Origin: Chloroflexota bacterium
Lineage (GTDB): Bacteria > Chloroflexota > Anaerolineae > J102
Assembly (NCBI GenBank): GCA_013152585.1
Contig: JAADGC010000019.1
Location: 1-45,033, forward strand
Length of the DNA stretch: 45,033 nt
Direction: 5' to 3'
Shown here: in pieces, positions 3,225 through 27,696 of the stretch
Position numbering within the stretch: the first letter of the stretch is position 1
Layout: the number at the start of each line of letters is the position of its first letter
Notes under the pieces: generated by a model
Database searches by the model: none
Told to the model about the DNA's origin: nothing
What the model saw: only the letters and a program-made list of their open reading frames with translations
Made by a program: the position numbers and the translations under genes

Positions 3225-4229
3225 CTATTTCGTAACACCAGCCATCATGCCGGTAATAAATATTCTATTCATAAAGAGGTAGATAATCAGCATCGGCAAC
3301 GAGGCGATGAATACGCCGGCGAAAATTGGGCCGAAGAACCATGTCTGTGCGCCCACAAATCGTGCAAGCGCCACCTGAACTGTCGTCCACACCGGATCAG
3401 TCATAAATAGCAGTGGCGTCATGTAATCATTGAACACATAGGTGCCACTAATGACGAAAGTTGTCAGAATAGGTATTTTGGACAGAGGCAGGAGGATGTG
3501 GAAGAAATAGCCAAAGCGGGATGTTCCGTCGATTTTGGAAGCATCTTCCAGTTCAGACGGTATTGTACTGTAGAAGGCAAGAAAGATCAGGATCGTCATT
3601 GGCATGCGCACGCCGGAATAGATCAAAATCAGGGCGATGGGATTCCCCAACATGCCGGTCTTGTCAAGCATAATGTAGAGAGGAAGCAGGCCCAGCATGA
3701 GTGGCAGCGTCAGACCCACGATGAAGATGAGTAAAATATAATGGAAGAGGCGATAACGCATAAGCGACAAGGGATAAGCCGCCATGCCGGCCGCGATAGA
3801 GAGAATCACCACGCTGCCAAACACGACGAAAAACGTAACTGACAGTGCTTGTAACAAACGTCCTCGTTGCCACACCAACTTGATGCTTGCCAGGCGTAAT
3901 GTTCCTCCCACATATTCTTTTATCTCTTCCAGTTGTTCTGGACTACGAGCGATTTCCGATATCTTTTGATACGAGGCCGGTCGTTTTTTCAATCCAAATT
4001 TCTGCAAGAAATCCTGCACATCTATTGGCGTCTGATCCATGATGTACTGCCAACGGATGTTCGGGCTCACCTCCACTTCGCCGGGTAGGCCGAGTGGCTT
4101 ACTATTGATTTCCTGTTGCGTTTTGAATGCCCCCACTACCATGATGTAGAAGGGAAACAGAGTCACAATGACGAGCATCACCATGAATAGATAGAATAAA
4201 ATGAAGACTCGACTGCGAGGATGAAGCAT
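3225..4229 (-). CDS. Carbohydrate ABC transporter permease (MalG-like)
   Basis: Multiple TM segments and EAA-like loop SELEDASKIDGTSRFGYFFHILLPLSKIPIL. Confidence 0.92.
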   Translation of the reverse strand: MLHPRSRVFILFYLFMVMLVIVTLFPFYIMVVGAFKTQQEINSKPLGLPGEVEVSPNIRWQYIMDQTPIDVQDFLQKFGLKKRPASYQKISEIARSPEQLEEIKEYVGGTLRLASIKLVWQRGRLLQALSVTFFVVFGSVVILSIAAGMAAYPLSLMRYRLFHYILLIFIVGLTLPLMLGLLPLYIMLDKTGMLGNPIALILIYSGVRMPMTILIFLAFYSTIPSELEDASKIDGTSRFGYFFHILLPLSKIPILTTFVISGTYVFNDYMTPLLFMTDPVWTTVQVALARFVGAQTWFFGPIFAGVFIASLPMLIIYLFMNRIFITGMMAGVTK

Positions 4230-4241
4230 GAGTAATGTTCC

Positions 4242-5198
4242 TTAGTACTCGACGGAGGTTCTCTGTAGCACCGCCACTTGAATGAGAGAGCCGAAGAACA
4301 AAATGAGACCGACGATCGCCATCATTGCCGACGCATAACCAAATCCGACCGTCGAAAAGGCCCAGCGATAGAATACCACAGCCAGGACATCCAGGCTCTT
4401 GATGCCCCCGGCGGTGCTGCCGGCCAAGGCTACGGGGATATCGAAAAGACGCCACGTTCCCGTAAAGGTAATGACGCTGGCGGTGATAATCGTTGGCCAC
4501 ATTTGTGGAAGCATTATTCTAAAAAGCGTCTGGAAATAGTTGGCGCCGTCGACCTTGGCCGATTCGATGGTATCTGTAGGAACTGCGACCAAGCCGGCAA
4601 GAAATATCGCTGCGTTGAAGCCGGCGAACTTCCATCCAGTCAACAAGATCATCGTCAGACTGGCTGGCCATCCTTCCCCCAGGAAGGTGATCGGCTTGGC
4701 GATGATCCCAGACTGCAACAATAACCAATTGAGGGGACCAATCGTGGGATCGAGGATCATCCGCATAAGGAACCCCAGAGCCAGATTACTGATCACGTAC
4801 GGCAGAAACACCACGACAAGAAAAGCGTACTTAAACTTGATTTTCTCGTAAAGAATCAGAGCAGGAATAAAGCCCAACAAGAAGATCATCACCCAGTTGC
4901 CCAGCCAGTAGATCGCCGTCCACATCAGGGCCTCATAGAATTTAGCCGAGTTCGGGCCGCCTCCGAATAGCAAATCGGTGATGTTGGCTAGCCCGACGAA
5001 ATGATACGATGTCCCGACGACTAACATGTCCGTCATCGCCACTTGCAAACCGCTGATAACAGGATATATCGAAAAGATGATGTAGATCACCAATGCCGGC
5101 AGAGCCATCAGAAAATACTGCCAGACATCTCCTTGTAGTCGGTACTTCAGCCGCTGCAACCGCGATGGCGACGAGGCGAACTGCTGAGCATTTTGCAT
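4242..5198 (-). CDS. Carbohydrate ABC transporter permease (MalF-like)
   Basis: TM-rich with ESAKVDGANYFQTLFRIMLPQMWPTI (EAA motif). ORF track starts at GTG 5225; ATG 5198 preceded by GGAG looks better. Confidence 0.9.
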   Translation of the reverse strand: MQNAQQFASSPSRLQRLKYRLQGDVWQYFLMALPALVIYIIFSIYPVISGLQVAMTDMLVVGTSYHFVGLANITDLLFGGGPNSAKFYEALMWTAIYWLGNWVMIFLLGFIPALILYEKIKFKYAFLVVVFLPYVISNLALGFLMRMILDPTIGPLNWLLLQSGIIAKPITFLGEGWPASLTMILLTGWKFAGFNAAIFLAGLVAVPTDTIESAKVDGANYFQTLFRIMLPQMWPTIITASVITFTGTWRLFDIPVALAGSTAGGIKSLDVLAVVFYRWAFSTVGFGYASAMMAIVGLILFFGSLIQVAVLQRTSVEY

Positions 5199-11631: not shown

Positions 11632-11920
11632 GGCTCCGCCAGGGTGACACAATAGAAAAATGTGGTTCAACCGCATCTCCCGGAGGTCTGAATTGAGTAC
11701 CCCCTGAGTCCCAAAAGAGCCAAAAGTACCCGATAGCGTTTTTCATATTTGAAATTGCTGGGTTTGCCCGGCCCAAGTTGCCGTTCGCTGCTGTTTTCTT
11801 TTACAATGAGAGCGTGCGCTCTGGGCAAGAGTCAACAACGCAACCCCTTCGTGCCTGGCGTGTTATTATCTTTGTTCTCTATTTTATCAACCCACCACAC
11901 ACCTCCCAGGTAATGCTATT

Positions 11921-12763
11921 ATGTCTATTCGTATTCTTGCCGATTCAAGTTGTAATGTGCCCGAGTCCTACCAAAAAAACCTGGGCATTATCATTGTGCC
12001 TGCCTGGGTGAATTTTGCCGACGGTACGTCTCTGCGCAATGGTGTCGATATCACGGATGCCGAATTCTATCGCCGCCTGGAATCGGAAAAACACCTGCCC
12101 ACCACCTCCCAACCCACGCCTCAGGACTTCGCCGATGCTGTGAATGCAGTGCCCGAAGACGAGATCATCATCGCAGCCGTCTCATCGAAGTTAAGCGGCA
12201 CGTACAGTAGTGCGGTGCAGACTGTGGCTTTGTGCCCCCACAAGAAGATTCACCCTTACGACACGCTGAGTGCCTCGATGGGTTCAGCCTGGCAGATCAT
12301 CGCCGGCGCCGAATTGGCGCAACAAGGTGCGGATGCTGACGCCATTCTGGCCGAAATGCAGCGCGCCGGCGCGGCCACCAGAATCATCCTTGTCATCGAT
12401 ACGCTCAAATATCTGGCCGCCAGTGGCCGCGCTCCTGTTCTCAGCGCCATGGTGGGCAGTCTGCTCAGCATCAAACCGCTGCTGGAGTTCGTGGATGGTG
12501 TGTTGGAGTTGGCTGGCCGCGTGCGCAGCCGCAAGCGCTCCAAACGTGAGTTGCTGAATCGTATGGCCGACTGGGCCCAAGACCGTCCCCTGCGAGTCGC
12601 GGTGATCAATGCCAATGTTCCTCACGAAGCTGAGCTTTTTGCCGAAGACGTGCAACAGCGTCTCAACGTCAAAGAATTGCAAATCGTTGAACTCGGGCCG
12701 GTTCTGGGTTCGCTGGCCGGACCCGGAACCCTGGCTATCGCAGCTTATGCTGTAAGTGATTGA
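11921..12763 (+). CDS. DegV family (fatty-acid-binding) protein
   Basis: MSIRILADSSCNVPESYQK, TTSQPTPQDF, ISSKLSGTYSSA-type motif (VSSKLSGTYSSAVQT), SIKPLLEFVDGVLELAGRVRSRKRS. Confidence 0.93.
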   Translation: MSIRILADSSCNVPESYQKNLGIIIVPAWVNFADGTSLRNGVDITDAEFYRRLESEKHLPTTSQPTPQDFADAVNAVPEDEIIIAAVSSKLSGTYSSAVQTVALCPHKKIHPYDTLSASMGSAWQIIAGAELAQQGADADAILAEMQRAGAATRIILVIDTLKYLAASGRAPVLSAMVGSLLSIKPLLEFVDGVLELAGRVRSRKRSKRELLNRMADWAQDRPLRVAVINANVPHEAELFAEDVQQRLNVKELQIVELGPVLGSLAGPGTLAIAAYAVSD

Positions 12764-13891: not shown

Positions 13892-15148
13892 ATGAATCCA
13901 ACCAATCACCGTCGTCGCGTGGTCATCACCGGCATGGGAGCCATCACTGCAGTAGGCGCCAACGCCGACGAAACCTGGCAAAATTTACTGGCCGGACACT
14001 CCGGCATCGACTATGTCACCTTGTTCGACGCCAGCCCTTACCCCACCCGCATTGCCGCCGAAGTCAAAAACTGGGATCCCTCGCTTTATATCGAGCGCAA
14101 GGAAATCCGCCGCATGGCCCGCTGTTCGCAATTTGCCGTGGGCGCTGCCACGCAGGCCCTGCAGGATGCCGGGCTGCTTACGGATGCCCCCCTGGGGGAA
14201 CGCACAGCCGTGATCATTGGCACCGGTCTGGGCGGTTTTGAGCTTTATCAGGATGCGGTGGAAGCTGCGGTCAAACGCGGCGCCTACCGCGTGCGGCCCA
14301 TGACCGCGGTGGGTGGCCTGCCGAATATGCCGGCCTTCCACATCAGCCGTCGTTTCGGGGCGCTGGGCCCTCTGAACACGGTTGTCACAGCGTGTGCTGC
14401 TGGCACGCAGGCTTTGGGCGAAGGCGCCGAGTGGATTCGCCGCGGGGCCGCGGATCAGGTGTTGGCGGGCGGGGTCGAGGCATTGATTGGGGATATGTTT
14501 TTCGCCGGTTTCACAGCCATGAAAGCGATTTCCACCAGCAACGATCCCCCACACAAGGCCAGCAGGCCTTTCGATGCTAAGCGCAACGGTTTCATCATCG
14601 GCGAAGGTGCGGCTGTGTTCGTGTTGGAAGAACTTGAGCATGCCCGTGCGCGCGGGGCCACGATCTACGCCGAGATCTTGGGACATTCGGCATCAGCCGA
14701 TGCTTACCATGTGGCTGCCCCCGAACCCCATGGCCTGGGGGCGCAGCGGGCTATGCGCTGGGCATTGCAAGATGCCGATATTCAACCCGGTGATGTCGAT
14801 TACATCAACTCCCACGGCACCAGCACGATCCTGAATGATAAAACAGAAACCTACGCCATCAAACAGGTCTTCGGTGCACATGCCTACAAGCTGGCCATCA
14901 ATTCTACCAAATCGATGATCGGCCACTCATTTGGCGGCGCTGGCGCCATCGAGGCGCTGGTGGTGACCATGAGCGTGAAGGAAGACCGTCTGCACCCCAC
15001 CATCAACTACGAAAACCCCGATCCCGACTGCGATTTAGATTATGTTCCCAATGTCAGCCGCGAACAGCCGGTCAACATTGCCCTTTCCAATTCGTTTGGC
15101 CTGGGCGGGCAAAATGCCTGTCTGGTCGTAGCTAAATATCGCCAATAA
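13892..15148 (+). CDS. fabF: Beta-ketoacyl-ACP synthase II
   Basis: RRVVITGMGAITAVG, VVTACAAGTQALGEG (Cys), NSHGTSTILND (His), STKSMIGHSFGGAGAIE (Lys/His). Start at ATG 13892 after AAAGGAG. Confidence 0.95.
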   Translation: MNPTNHRRRVVITGMGAITAVGANADETWQNLLAGHSGIDYVTLFDASPYPTRIAAEVKNWDPSLYIERKEIRRMARCSQFAVGAATQALQDAGLLTDAPLGERTAVIIGTGLGGFELYQDAVEAAVKRGAYRVRPMTAVGGLPNMPAFHISRRFGALGPLNTVVTACAAGTQALGEGAEWIRRGAADQVLAGGVEALIGDMFFAGFTAMKAISTSNDPPHKASRPFDAKRNGFIIGEGAAVFVLEELEHARARGATIYAEILGHSASADAYHVAAPEPHGLGAQRAMRWALQDADIQPGDVDYINSHGTSTILNDKTETYAIKQVFGAHAYKLAINSTKSMIGHSFGGAGAIEALVVTMSVKEDRLHPTINYENPDPDCDLDYVPNVSREQPVNIALSNSFGLGGQNACLVVAKYRQ

Positions 15149-15178
15149 ATTCACCCCACCCCTCTTACTAGGATACTC

Positions 15179-22110: not shown

Positions 22111-24183
22111 TCAGGGCACCTGCACGTGCAGCCACAGCGGTAAAAAGCTCTGCCTGGCCACCTGCCCCGAACGCTCCAGGGTGGAGAGCTGCGTTTGCAC
22201 GCTGAGCGTGAAAACCGCTCCTGCCTGCACGGGCGCAGCCGCTATCAGTGGGGTCACGAACTTGCCGCTGGGGTCCAGAAAAGCCAGGGCCATGCTTTGG
22301 CTCTGATCCGCAAAAATCGCCGCGCCCGCCAGTTGCAGCCGCAATTGGTCCGGTGTGTTCTGATTTCCCCACTCGATCTGCACGGCCAGCGGCTGCTGCG
22401 GATGCAGGAATAAAGTGGCCGGGACCAGGTTCAGCCAGGGGCTGATGGGTGTCGCCGTGGGCGTGAGAGTGGGAGTGGCCGTGGCGGCGGCAGTTGGGGT
22501 GGGGGATGGGCTGGGGCTGGGTGTGGCCGTGGGCATGGGGATGGCGGTGGGCGTGCGGGTGGACGTGGGCGTGGTGGTCGGCACCGGCGTGGCCGTGGGC
22601 GTGGCCACCGGCAAAACCAGGCGGCCCGCACCGTACGTGTTATCGGGGCCGGGCAACCCCAGATCAATACTGGCCGCGAGCAACGTGTCACGCAACTGCG
22701 AGACCGTCAAGGCAGGATAGCGCTGTCGTAACACCGCTGCCGCCCCGGCCACATGCGGCGCCGCCGCCGAAGTGCCAAAGAATCCGCTGCCCCCCGCGGC
22801 CAGGGGACGGCCATCACTGACGCCATAAGTCTGCGTGCTCACACCATCATAGCCCATGATGTCCGGCTTCACCCGGCCATCGCTGGTGGGCCCACGGCTG
22901 CTAAAGAACTCGGCCGCGAAACCGGCATTGGCATTCCAGAACACAGCCCCCGCAGCCACAGCGTCGGCCGCATCCGCGGGTTGAGCAAGCGACCAGGCCG
23001 GGGTGGCGTACTGCAGGCTGGCACCCGAAGTGAAAAGATCGAGGGTATGCACATTCCCTGCGACCAGGCGTATCGCCAACTCATACGTGCCGCCGGTCGT
23101 CGCCTGGTAGCACAACGCTTCGGTGGGCGCTTGGGAGCCGTCTTGCACGTTTTCACTCAGCGCCACCAGATTAGCCCCATGATACAGCAACAGATCGTAG
23201 TCATCCGTGGTCACGGGCCAGGCATCCCAACTCAGATACGCACATAACCAATCGCCGGTGTTCAAGGTCACATCGTTGGTCTCATCCGCCGCCGTAAAAT
23301 TATGGAAAAGATCGCCATCGCCCAAAAAACGACCGCGATAATGGCTTTGGGCCTGATTCCCGGCCGAATTCACCCACAAAATACCCGCTGCCGTCGCCGT
23401 ATGCACGATATCGGCCAATGCCCCTGTACCATCACCGGGACCGGTGTTGAACCAGCTAATGGAATGCACAATCACGTCGACTCCGGCCTGGATGGCGGCA
23501 TCGACCGCATTGGCCAGTTCTACATCCGTATCAAAAGCATAGAGATGCAACGTCGCCCCGGGAGCGGCATCGTACAGTATTTCGGCCACGGCACTGCCGT
23601 GCTCCCCATCGTCCCAGCGCCCGTCGGCCCGGAAACTGCGCCCCACCACTACCGGCAATTCCCCCCGGGCTACCAAGGCCTCATATCCGGCAAATCCGCT
23701 GTCGATGACAGCCACGTCAACGCCTTGCCCGGTCCAGCCGGCAGCATGCCAGGGGAAAAGTCCGGCGGGAAACAGGCCTTCGGAGATGAACCCGGCCGGC
23801 TGATGGGGGTAGCTGGGGCGAAGGCGTTGCACGCCGGGCAGGCGGGCGAGCATGGGTATCTGCGCCGCATCGACCCGCACCTGCACCTGCCCGGCGCTTT
23901 GCGCTTCCACCGCCACGCCTGCCGGCAACCGCAGGTCCCCAGTGTATTCGATGATCAGGCGCAGCCGTTGCGCATCGTCCCCCAGCCCCATGCGTTGCCC
24001 CCAGGCCGGGCGCTGCCCCGGCGCCAAAGCCTGCCACTGCTTGATGCTGGCGTCGATGGCCGCGGTCGGCGGCGGCGACCCGTTGGCAGGAATGGGGAGG
24101 GCGCGGGAGGAAGAGAGTGTGGTGATCAGCAAGAGCAGCACTGTTGCCAGCACCCTTGCCAAATTCCTGAAGTGACGCATCAT
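22111..24183 (-). CDS. S8 (subtilisin-like) secreted serine protease with Pro/Thr linker
   Basis: VDVAVIDSGFAG (Asp), GEHGSAVAEILYDAAPG (His), GTSAAAPHVAGAAAVL (Ser), TPTSTRTPTAIPMPTATPSPSPSPT. Confidence 0.93.
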   Translation of the reverse strand: MMRHFRNLARVLATVLLLLITTLSSSRALPIPANGSPPPTAAIDASIKQWQALAPGQRPAWGQRMGLGDDAQRLRLIIEYTGDLRLPAGVAVEAQSAGQVQVRVDAAQIPMLARLPGVQRLRPSYPHQPAGFISEGLFPAGLFPWHAAGWTGQGVDVAVIDSGFAGYEALVARGELPVVVGRSFRADGRWDDGEHGSAVAEILYDAAPGATLHLYAFDTDVELANAVDAAIQAGVDVIVHSISWFNTGPGDGTGALADIVHTATAAGILWVNSAGNQAQSHYRGRFLGDGDLFHNFTAADETNDVTLNTGDWLCAYLSWDAWPVTTDDYDLLLYHGANLVALSENVQDGSQAPTEALCYQATTGGTYELAIRLVAGNVHTLDLFTSGASLQYATPAWSLAQPADAADAVAAGAVFWNANAGFAAEFFSSRGPTSDGRVKPDIMGYDGVSTQTYGVSDGRPLAAGGSGFFGTSAAAPHVAGAAAVLRQRYPALTVSQLRDTLLAASIDLGLPGPDNTYGAGRLVLPVATPTATPVPTTTPTSTRTPTAIPMPTATPSPSPSPTPTAAATATPTLTPTATPISPWLNLVPATLFLHPQQPLAVQIEWGNQNTPDQLRLQLAGAAIFADQSQSMALAFLDPSGKFVTPLIAAAPVQAGAVFTLSVQTQLSTLERSGQVARQSFLPLWLHVQVP

Positions 24184-25037
24184 GAGGGCACGGTTTCGGC
24201 AGCACGTATGTAGGCCAGGCCAAACGCCCCCGGGCCGGCGTGCACAGCCAGGGCCGGTCCTGCCTCGGCCAGGAGGATATCAGCAGGATCGCAGGGGATG
24301 GCGGCAGACACTTTGGCCACCAGCATGTTGGCTGCTGCGGATGCCCGCGTATGAGCCACGGCTACCGCCCACACGTTTTCATCCTGAATCTGAGCCACGG
24401 CCCGGGCAATGCCTTTTTTCAGCGTGCGCACCGTGCCTGCTAAGCCCAAAACACCCTCTTCCATGTTGAGCAGGGGCTTGATAGATAGAATAGCCGACAT
24501 GCGTTTGATCAGCACCATGAGCGGCGCCAGCCGGCCCCCGCGCTGCACGGCCTCGACCGTATCCAGAAAGATGATGATGCGCAGGCGCTGGCGCCAGTCG
24601 TGCAGGGCCGAGAGAATCGCCTGGGCCGCGGCCCCTTGCGCCGCCATCTCGGCGGCCTTCAGGGTGAGCAATCCTTCGCCCAGCGAAAGCGACCATGAAT
24701 CGAACACATGCACGCGGTCGCCGAACTCCTGCGCCGCCACCATGGCGGCGTTGTACGTGCCGCTGTGTTTGCTGGTGATGGTGATGGCGATCACCTCCGA
24801 GGCTGTCTGCAAAGCCCTGGTAAATACCTCGGCCCAGTCTCCTACCGATGGCCCCGAACTTTGCGGCGGCTGGCTGATATCATAACGCTGCCAGAATTCG
24901 GCGCGGGTATCGGGTGAGTCACGCAGTTCGTATTCGCCAAAGCGGGCTATCAGGGACGCCTGCTGAATCTGATATTTTGCCGCCAGAGCTGGCGGCAGGT
25001 CGCAGCCGCTATCGGCAACTATGGCTATTGGGGGCAT
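24180..25037 (-). CDS. DegV family protein (second copy in window)
   Basis: MPPIAIVADSGCDLPPALAAKYQ, TSKHSGTYNAAMVAA, FLDTVEAVQRGGRLAPL, ILSIKPLLNMEEGVLGLAGTVRTLKKG. Start ATG 25037. Confidence 0.92.
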   Translation of the reverse strand: MPPIAIVADSGCDLPPALAAKYQIQQASLIARFGEYELRDSPDTRAEFWQRYDISQPPQSSGPSVGDWAEVFTRALQTASEVIAITITSKHSGTYNAAMVAAQEFGDRVHVFDSWSLSLGEGLLTLKAAEMAAQGAAAQAILSALHDWRQRLRIIIFLDTVEAVQRGGRLAPLMVLIKRMSAILSIKPLLNMEEGVLGLAGTVRTLKKGIARAVAQIQDENVWAVAVAHTRASAAANMLVAKVSAAIPCDPADILLAEAGPALAVHAGPGAFGLAYIRAAETVPS

Positions 25038-25109
25038 TTTATGTTCCTGTCGCAGGGTTGGCATAGATGCCCAATTATCGCATGATCCTTCTGATTTGTT
25101 CAAGGATTC

Positions 25110-25256
25110 AGCACAGAGTCAGTTATCGGGCAGCGGGGGAGTCGTGTCAGCTATAATCCAGGCCTCATACAACGGCTGCGGATCATAGCCACTGACCTCG
25201 GTCACGACCTGCAGAAAATCCTCCGGGGTAGGCCGGCGGAAGCGGTAGCGGTCGAT
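25110..25256 (-). pseudogene. Truncated duplicate of the 3' end of the M1 peptidase gene (homologous to 26164-26310)
   Basis: 147-bp ungapped alignment with 5 differences; includes the same stop codon at 25119-25121. Confidence 0.92.
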
Positions 25257-25333
25257 GGTCGGACGGATTGGACGCCGCTGCGAATAACTGGCTAAGCCGT
25301 CAGACTGATCCCGAACTGCTCGGAGGACGCTAA

Positions 25334-25570
25334 TTATCGTTCGTCCCCCGGTAAGGGCGGACGATCCGGAACGCTATCCAGGATATTTCTGAATGCTTCT
25401 CTGTCGGCCCTGGTGGCTCTTTGGATCAAATAATCTTCAGTCATAATTGCCGAAATCTTTTCAGCTACAGCAGCCGAAATGAACTGATTGATAGAAACGC
25501 CTTCCTGCGAAGCAATTTCTTTTATATGACGATGAATTGAGTTCGGCAATCTCAAACTTAATGCACTCAT
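25334..25570 (-). CDS. Ribbon-helix-helix-type antitoxin
   Basis: MSALSLRLPNSIHRHIKEIASQEGVSINQFISAAVAEKISA; overlaps the toxin gene by 4 bp. Confidence 0.82.
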   Translation of the reverse strand: MSALSLRLPNSIHRHIKEIASQEGVSINQFISAAVAEKISAIMTEDYLIQRATRADREAFRNILDSVPDRPPLPGDER

Positions 25571-25986
25571 CTTGTCATCTCCAGTAATTTTCTTGGCGGA
25601 ATTGCCTGGATTCCGAACTTTTCGGAGCCTTCGAAATCCTTCAGGTTGTGGGTAATAATTCTTTGGGTTTGGGATGCCACTGCAACTTCAAGAATATGGT
25701 CATCTTTGGGGTCTTTCAGGTACGGTCGCCATAGGAAATAGATTTTTTGAAAATCACTAAGAGCGCACAAGTTATCGAGGATGACATCAATTTGCCTATC
25801 GGATATTTGTAGTTTTTTGCAGTTTCGTCTTAAAACATCCTCATATTCAAATAGCAAAGTCACTGATATGACAGGCTTTATTTTGCCACTATCGATGAGC
25901 CGAAGCACCTGATGCGAGGCCCCTGTCGAAGAATAAAGTCCGGCAAATAGTATATTGGTATCCATGATGATTTTGTAATCATTCAT
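25567..25986 (-). CDS. PIN-domain toxin of a type II toxin-antitoxin system
   Basis: MNDYKIIMDTNILFAGLYSSTGASHQVLRLIDSGKIKPVISVTLLFEYEDVL..., DPKDDHILEVAVASQTQRIITHNLKDF. Start ATG 25986. Confidence 0.88.
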   Translation of the reverse strand: MNDYKIIMDTNILFAGLYSSTGASHQVLRLIDSGKIKPVISVTLLFEYEDVLRRNCKKLQISDRQIDVILDNLCALSDFQKIYFLWRPYLKDPKDDHILEVAVASQTQRIITHNLKDFEGSEKFGIQAIPPRKLLEMTR

Positions 25987-25994
25987 AACAAAAT

Positions 25995-26012
25995 GATACC
26001 ATATTCGGTATC
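25995..26012. promoter_or_regulatory. Inverted repeat GATACC-atattc-GGTATC upstream of the TA operon, candidate autoregulatory operator
   Basis: Perfect 6-bp arms, 9 nt upstream of the toxin ATG. Confidence 0.6.
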
Positions 26013-26172
26013 TTGTTGTCAAGCTGTTTTTCCCCAGTTCTATCGGATTCTGTGGACACAGCCTGGCCCCGCCTGTCATGCTGAGGATGCGCAGGGGTGC
26101 TGCATCCCCGGCCTGGCGTGATGGGCTGGGACAACATCCGTGCAATTCCGGGCCTATTGACGAAGCACAGAG

Positions 26173-27696
26173 TCAGTTGTCGGGCAGCGGGGGGGTCGTG
26201 TCAGCTATAATCCAGGCCTCATACAACGGCTGCGGATCATAGCCGCTGACCTCGGTCACGACCTGCAGAAAATCCTCCGGGGTGGGCCGGCGGAAGCGAT
26301 AGCGGTCGATAAATGTTTGCAACACATGCAGATACGTCTCGCGGCCGAGTGTCTGATACAGGGCATCAAAAAACAAGGCCGCCTTGGCGTAGACCAGCGT
26401 TTCGTAATTGTCTGGCTGGAAGGTGGACACCGGCTGCCCCACGGCCTGGTCCAGGCCATGATCCACCGCCCACTGCACCGGAATCTGCCAGCGCAGGGTG
26501 CGGATGCGGTCGGCGGCCTGCGGGCCGTAGATCGTCTCGGCATAAATGAGGGTGCTCTGCTCGGCCAGGCCTTCATCAAACCAGGGATAACGATACGGAT
26601 CGGAGCCGATGAGATTGTACCACCATTGATGAGATATCTCGTGGGCCACCAGTAGTTCCTGGCTGTCATCGTTTGTGCGATAGGTATCGAGGCCAATATA
26701 ATTCAGGCCCGGATACTCCATGCCCAGATAGCGCGTGGGGGTTTCTACAATATCCAGCTCGGTAAACGGATACTGCCGGAACAGACGGTCGTATACACGT
26801 AGCACGGCCGCAGCCTGCGCCAAGGCCTTTTGCCCCGCCCGTTCATCGATTGGGAGATAATAGCTGTTCAACCGCACGCCATCCACGGTGGCTTGGGCCA
26901 CGTCGAATTCTTTGCTCAGAGTCATGCCCCACTCCGGCACCAAACCGGTCACCACCACATGATCAGTCCATCCTGGGGTCGTGGTGGTGTGTGTGATCTC
27001 CACGCCCGTGGTCACCAGGCGATACTCGCTGGGCACCGTGGCCGTCACCCAATACAAGGCCGGGTCGGTGATAGCAATATCGCCAAATGAGGGGGGGATG
27101 TCCAGCCGCCAGGGCTGCGTGGGCAGGCCGGTCTGAGCCGGTAGCATGGGATAGGCGTATGGCAGGTTGAGGATACCTTCGCTTTCGCCAAAGAGCACGT
27201 AGCCAGAATGATCGGGTTTGGGGGCACTGAGTTTGTATTTGATCTCCAGATCAATGCTTTTGTCCGGAAGCAAGGGCTCGGTCAGGGTGATGCGCGCCGC
27301 ACTGTCGTTCACGGCGAAAGCGAACCCTACGACAAAGTGCTCGGGCAGGGTCGTGACCCCGGTCAGCGTCATGCTCCCCACCAACTGAGGCAGATTGGGG
27401 TACAGGCGCACGAACACATCGTTCATCGGTGCACCGCTGCGATTACGAAAATGAATACGCGCCACGCCCTCTACCTGCCGCTGCTCGGGGTCCACCTTGA
27501 GCTCGATGGCATAGCGCGGGGTAGCGTCGAAGTCGAAATCGGCGGGCAGAGCCGCGTCGGTAAAGGCGGGGCGGTAGGGGGCCAGGGGATCAGGGGAAAG
27601 CTGGGATGAGGAGAGGAACGGGAGATCGATATGGCTGCAGGCGCCCAGCAGCAGCGCCAACAGCAAAATGCCGGGAACAGAGCGATAAACATGCAT
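26173..27696 (-). CDS. M1-family metallopeptidase-like lipoprotein
   Basis: LLALLLGACSHID lipobox, LLVAHEISHQWWYNLIGSDPYRYPWFDEGLAEQ (HExxH...E). Confidence 0.93.
   Translation of the reverse strand: MHVYRSVPGILLLALLLGACSHIDLPFLSSSQLSPDPLAPYRPAFTDAALPADFDFDATPRYAIELKVDPEQRQVEGVARIHFRNRSGAPMNDVFVRLYPNLPQLVGSMTLTGVTTLPEHFVVGFAFAVNDSAARITLTEPLLPDKSIDLEIKYKLSAPKPDHSGYVLFGESEGILNLPYAYPMLPAQTGLPTQPWRLDIPPSFGDIAITDPALYWVTATVPSEYRLVTTGVEITHTTTTPGWTDHVVVTGLVPEWGMTLSKEFDVAQATVDGVRLNSYYLPIDERAGQKALAQAAAVLRVYDRLFRQYPFTELDIVETPTRYLGMEYPGLNYIGLDTYRTNDDSQELLVAHEISHQWWYNLIGSDPYRYPWFDEGLAEQSTLIYAETIYGPQAADRIRTLRWQIPVQWAVDHGLDQAVGQPVSTFQPDNYETLVYAKAALFFDALYQTLGRETYLHVLQTFIDRYRFRRPTPEDFLQVVTEVSGYDPQPLYEAWIIADTTPPLPDN

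Follow-up and report, generated by a model that had tools for sequence, protein, structure and literature searches.

The window, that is, the whole 45,033-bp stretch of DNA that was analysed, contained on its minus strand a gene for an M1-family metallopeptidase, a toxin–antitoxin (TA) module, a detached copy of the 3' end of the peptidase gene (hereafter the remnant) and a degV-family gene, in that order (Table 1). A repeat search returned the remnant and the end of the intact gene as one 147-nt pair with 97% identity and a spacing of 1054 bp. No third match to this pair was found in a search of the own genome, a draft of 251 contigs. The sequence contexts diverged immediately outside the repeat on both sides, and both copies encoded the same peptide (IDRYRF...PPLPDN*). 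Alignment on the coding strand revealed five differences, given here as remnant/intact codons: TAC/TAT at 25245/26299, CCT/CCC at 25230/26284, AGT/AGC at 25191/26245, ACT/ACC at 25140/26194 and GAT/GAC at 25125/26179. All were T/C transitions at codon position 3 and synonymous, exactly as described in an earlier note on this DNA.

Table 1. Positions of features in the window and of the repeat copies at two further TA loci
Feature	Position	Strand	Sequence	Evidence and remarks
degV-family gene, ancestral downstream neighbour of M1	24180..25103	-	window	PF02645 E=8.1e-61; M1-adjacent in nine relatives
Promoter-like TTGAAC-18-GATAAT, 5' of degV	25074..25103	-	window	promoter scan; within stretch conserved in G001
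Remnant, displaced native M1 3' end	25110..25256	-	window	five synonymous differences; upstream start codon absent; degV-proximal position from synteny
Inserted segment, 907 bp	25257..26163	-	window	TA promoter, toxin, antitoxin, 77 bp 3' flank; from comparing repeat contexts
Antitoxin, ribbon-helix-helix (RHH), HicB/TacA1-like	25334..25570	-	window	4-bp overlap with toxin stop; PF05534 and PF08681 above cut-off
Toxin, PIN-domain RNase, TIGR00305/PF13470 family	25567..25986	-	window	PIN_3 E=1.7e-20; TIGR00305 45.1 bits vs cut-off 29.15
Predicted TA promoter TTGACA-18-TATCAT	25993..26022	-	window	11/12 matches (promoter scan); holds palindrome GATACCGAATATGGTATC at 25995-26012
Repeat copy within intact M1 gene	26164..26310	-	window	final 46 codons with stop and 9 bp 3' flank; common codons at variant sites
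Intact M1-family metallopeptidase gene, insertion target	26173..27696	-	window	HEISH zinc motif; PF01433 E=1.9e-15; family orthologues 58-74% identical
Repeat copies at L188	5440-5569 and 6640-6769		G078:C37	
Repeat copies at L242	893-1106 and 1902-2115		G066:C285	

The 907-bp insert consisted of a promoter, a toxin gene and an antitoxin gene and had no other recognisable content; no recombinase, transposase or integrase was found in it. The G+C content of its core was 38–46%, against approximately 60% around it. The module itself was ordinary: the toxin exceeded the NCBIfam cut-off for TIGR00305/PIN_3 ("putative toxin-antitoxin system toxin component, PIN family"), and its gene overlapped that of an RHH antitoxin. 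The same order of toxin, then antitoxin, with homologous antitoxins, occurred at three further loci (L173, L175 and L231). The pair would be active as toxin and antitoxin, and the palindrome GATACCGAATATGGTATC is probably an operator for autoregulation. PADLOC left the TA unmatched, and Rfam had no match in the window. Plasmid-borne homologues of the toxin exist at <60% identity, the toxin was unmatched in the phage collection, and no carrier of the TA was identified in the plasmid and phage searches. Inside the insert, a GC-rich hairpin-like sequence GATGCGCAGGGGTGCTGCATC (26073–26110) was preceded by TGTCATGCTGAGG and had partial matches elsewhere in the genome; it is possibly a REP-like fragment carried in the insert.

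In nine relatives of the same family, M1 was followed directly by degV, with a single gene end and 2–199 bp separating the stop of M1 from the degV alignment. These relatives were distant family members, compared as one genome per species, and the TA was absent between M1 and degV in all nine. A 38-bp stretch 5' of degV (25070–25107) was 82% conserved in G001, the sole same-genus genome (74% protein identity), and this conservation stopped at the edge of the remnant. Because M1 and degV are adjacent in the relatives and the conserved degV upstream element abuts the remnant, the remnant is the native degV-side gene end, displaced by the insert. The earlier note had proposed that the remnant was brought in together with the TA, which reverses this polarity: with a native remnant, if a gene end was imported at all, it would have to be the tail that the intact gene carries today. 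The note's second proposal, that the remnant was left by a deleted full-length paralogue, was needless, because the genome contained no second close M1 copy and the next homologue was only ~30% identical. Tandem, diverged M1 homologues do occur in other families of the class (G025:C157, G031:C719 and G036:C33). However, these tandem copies were 34–47% identical to the query, as opposed to 97% at the DNA level for the remnant, a close second copy was absent from the family as well as the genome, and the remnant occupied the expected place of the single native gene end. A leftover of a tandem paralogue is accordingly hardly credible.

The reading frame of the remnant had no ATG, GTG or TTG 5' of the homologous part, so the remnant no longer works as a gene. 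Elsewhere in the M1 gene, CCC/CCT, AGC/AGT and ACC/ACT were used 19/2, 10/2 and 20/2 times, respectively. At three of the five variant sites the remnant had the rare codon (CCT, AGT, ACT) and the intact copy the common one, a hint that the changes occurred on the remnant side, consistent with C-to-T changes on a freed copy. G001 matched the intact copy at two variant sites (TAT, AGC) and was uninformative at the other three, and farther relatives were saturated, which made the polarisation weak. The remnant allele was not found in viral contigs in one exact 30-base scan, and a contig scan of other genomes returned relatives at ≤65% protein identity.

Some of the further loci were collected across the class as close homologues of the window TA. 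In the same genome (G000), a second TA, of the YafQ type, surfaced by chance in an own-genome search with the left flank of the insert. It was bracketed on contig C172 by a 31-bp perfect direct repeat (14400–14430 and 15123–15153, corresponding to 779–809 and 1502–1532 of L165) derived from the 5' end of a glycosyltransferase gene. At L173 (G068), a TA of the same family as in the window lay between the 3' end of an acyl-CoA synthetase gene and a 58-bp displaced copy of that end, which was followed by a terminator-like hairpin. At L188 (G078:C37), a DUF433/DUF5615 pair was located between an intact aldehyde dehydrogenase gene and its 130-bp displaced 3' end, again followed by a terminator-like hairpin. 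In the YafQ family, which was chosen independently, a RelB/YafQ pair at L242 separated an intact gene 3' end from a 214-bp displaced copy with 91% identity. L218 (G658:C223) had a 45-bp repeat close to where a gene for a MoeA-PBP fusion ends (3' side). There, the gene that looked intact seemed to gain a short tail from the insert (EVKALSSLA), and the displaced copy continued differently; the insertion may have replaced the C-terminus of the host gene. At L175 (G078:C100), 117-bp repeats (3712–3828 and 4713–4829) enclosed the TA, and our reading of their translation is that of a Vsr-like fragment. All eight differences between them fell inside one 45-bp end, with the remaining 72 bp identical, which suggests gene conversion or a mosaic origin at that locus.

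Gene 5' ends were duplicated at L210, L258 and L271: the 47-bp repeat at L210 (G491) came from the beginning of an enoyl-CoA hydratase gene, and L258 (G010), with a YafQ module, repeated 130 bp from the start of a glycosyltransferase gene. Displaced copies with a stop or frameshift were found at L258 (a stop) and L261. Across the other TA loci the direct repeats measured 31–214 bp, and the gene ends duplicated beside TAs came from acyl-CoA synthetase, MoeA fusion, enoyl-CoA hydratase, glycosyltransferase and aldehyde dehydrogenase genes. Since the repeated gene differed by locus (M1, acyl-CoA synthetase, MoeA fusion, enoyl-CoA hydratase), the repeats represent target sequence and not part of an element. 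The insert termini of the window, L173 and L175 had no sequence in common, which makes the work of a transposon or site-specific recombinase less likely.

These observations bear on the possibility that the insert is the relic of a site-specific integrative element that targeted and restored a gene 3' end and was later reduced to its TA cargo. Phage 21 or e14 integration into icd restores the gene end on one side and displaces it on the other, with synonymous differences between the two. The intact and displaced 3' ends in the window resemble such gene-end-targeting integration, and synonymous differences between restored and displaced ends would be expected from it. Unlike in icd integration, an integrase was absent here, the target was not fixed and the repeat length was variable. 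The targets were unrelated genes and included 5' ends, the inserts lacked common termini, and the toxin found no counterpart in the phage collection, so we regard such a relic as very improbable. An assembly chimera of two strains would fit the draft state of the genome and the strain-like divergence between the copies. However, the junction at 25256/25257 joined the TA flank to mid-gene sequence, which repeat collapse leaves unexplained, and the architecture recurred in independent genomes; a chimera is therefore scarcely to be expected.

The frequency of flanking repeats was surveyed with a uniform geometry for all sets (800-bp flanks, matches of ≥40 bits), the threshold having been set after first looks. 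Flanking direct repeats were present at 21 of 110 TA loci in the class (VapC-like 9/54, YafQ 8/27, ParE 4/29), drawn from genomes that were not mutually independent; the window locus was the starting point for the VapC set but not for the YafQ and ParE sets. Among controls, repeats flanked 0 of 30 glyoxalase loci (p=0.007 vs TA) and 11 of 540 positions picked at random in related genomes (p=3e-10 vs TA), and none of 320 mismatched TA flanks had them. Several of the hits at random positions were paralogues of M1 in tandem (L022). The strongest such hit, L188, proved to be a TA locus; it was kept among the random hits in the counts reported here and is treated as positive in the discussion only. 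Approximately half of the repeats at TA loci were REP-like or hairpin sequences and not gene ends, and two loci in the first pass (L149 and L162) had dispersed repeats alone. The 407-bp repeat at L301 was a tandem TA duplication and was left out of the gene-end duplications.

The synonymous nature of the differences in the window was then less surprising than the earlier note had held. Its estimate of 1 in 243 assumes that each difference fell on an unconstrained copy, which is too strong because either branch may change and the intact gene is filtered to synonymous changes. With the actual codons, the synonymous share of possible mutations was 0.24–0.34. The probability of five synonymous differences out of five was 0.0007–0.005 if neutral change fell on the remnant alone, 0.008–0.034 if the intact copy also changed after duplication, synonymously only, and 0.25–0.41 for two functional alleles (omega 0.1). 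The differences were thus more synonymous than chance, and the likelihood at this locus favoured functional-allele divergence ~10–30 fold before priors, which is not decisive. At eight other TA-flanking gene-end duplications, 34 of 64 differences were synonymous (28/55 plus 6/9 at L188). Pooling all nine, including the window, gave 39/69 (33/60 plus 6/9 at L188), near the share of 0.38–0.51 expected from post-duplication divergence. At the pooled rate of the other loci, five out of five had a probability of ~0.03–0.06, and an all-synonymous locus with at least five differences was expected in 16% of such eight-locus sets. Eight loci including the window fitted one common rate (permutation homogeneity p = 0.08), so the window was not a clear outlier among TA-flanking duplications; L264 likewise had four synonymous differences out of four. 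The synonymous bias carries less evidential weight than had been assumed. Of the idea that the remnant diverged within a working gene, the synonymous excess and the higher likelihood of functional alleles at this locus stood, set against a remnant that is now startless. The exclusion of a decaying local duplication did not hold, given the missing start, the rare codons on the remnant side and the mixed differences at the other loci.

Divergence before insertion would be explained by import, in which a fragment or circle from a diverged strain, carrying an M1 3' end and the TA, recombined homologously in the M1 end, either by a Campbell-like single crossover or with one junction homologous and the other illegitimate. 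The differences would then be older than the insertion, the intact tail being the donor's and the remnant the recipient's. The five synonymous differences fit functional alleles, as do the four at L264. Additionally, a related YafQ TA was located directly 5' of an orthologous glycosyltransferase gene in another genome (G006:C66 5701–7143; L233 and L262), with no flanking gene-end repeat, and this gene is the one part-duplicated beside the YafQ TA of the genome studied here. The G006 arrangement is possibly an older insertion or a donor-like one; as a donor-like pair, it makes import possible at the C172 locus. In contrast, about half of the differences at other TA-flanking duplications were non-synonymous, the stop or frameshift in some remnants (L258, L261) fits decay, the codons unusual for the M1 gene sat in the remnant and not in the intact tail, and this TA was found beside M1 in no relative. 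Homology-facilitated illegitimate recombination could bring foreign DNA next to a homologous gene end through a single illegitimate junction. It predicts prior allelic divergence, which most of the other TA loci lacked. Import is thus an unlikely explanation, though one that deserves weight.

Given the observed architecture, insert content, ancestral synteny and recurrence, we consider it likely that a solitary type II TA module inserted into the 3' end of M1 with a 147-bp direct target duplication ("insertion with long target duplication"). During insertion, the target stretch from the insertion point to past the stop codon would have been doubled. One copy would complete the intact M1 gene; the other, the native end, would have been pushed to the degV side, where it is untranslatable. 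With the doubled stretch reaching from the insertion point beyond the stop, the host gene would survive. The duplication may have formed through two illegitimate junctions at staggered positions, either on sister molecules or via template switching. After insertion the remnant would drift freely and the intact copy would be limited to synonymous change. Most likely, the five differences arose after the insertion, with prior allelic divergence as the main alternative; a probability of only 1–3% for five synonymous differences out of five tells against post-insertion divergence alone. The flanking repeats would permit RecA-dependent excision or tandem amplification, and an addictive TA would select against its own loss.

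Insertion with long target duplication has been described for restriction–modification (RM) systems (Nobusato 2000; Furuta 2010), as summarised in PMC3874152 and PMC3031569. According to these two summaries, an addictive pair without a linked mobile element is flanked by long, variable direct target repeats (~100 bp), which allow later unequal crossing-over. TA and RM systems have been said to have addiction and apparent mobility in common (PMC2654758). The loci described here resembled the RM insertions in the addictive pair, the absence of a mobile element and the long, variable direct repeats. They differed in their cargo, a type II TA of <1.1 kb (PIN/RHH, RelB/YafQ or DUF433/DUF5615) instead of an RM system, and in that the duplicated stretch was repeatedly the terminus of a neighbouring gene. 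The literature searched contained no statement on long target duplication for TA modules, which is not proof of novelty. The best reading is that of a variant: long target duplication, known for RM systems, here seen with solitary type II TAs.

The pattern bears on how lone chromosomal TA pairs spread when neither plasmid, phage nor transposon carries them. Its sharing by unrelated TA pairs in related bacteria suggests that such small modules are mobile independently of any known mobile element. We put forward, tentatively and short of calling it probable, that solitary chromosomal type II TAs of several unrelated families are minimal mobile units, which insert at gene termini with a long, variable target duplication, keep the host gene whole, require no recombinase of their own and leave behind a footprint that can be dated and is still visible in a substantial minority (of the order of 10–20%) of such modules in the class. 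This would carry over to TAs the mobility inferred for RM systems, other addictive gene pairs. As a footprint, the target duplication is searchable, can be dated by divergence and is a guide to empty sites. Elsewhere in the window, a second DegV-family gene was present (11918–12748), 33% identical to the one adjoining the remnant (24180–25103).
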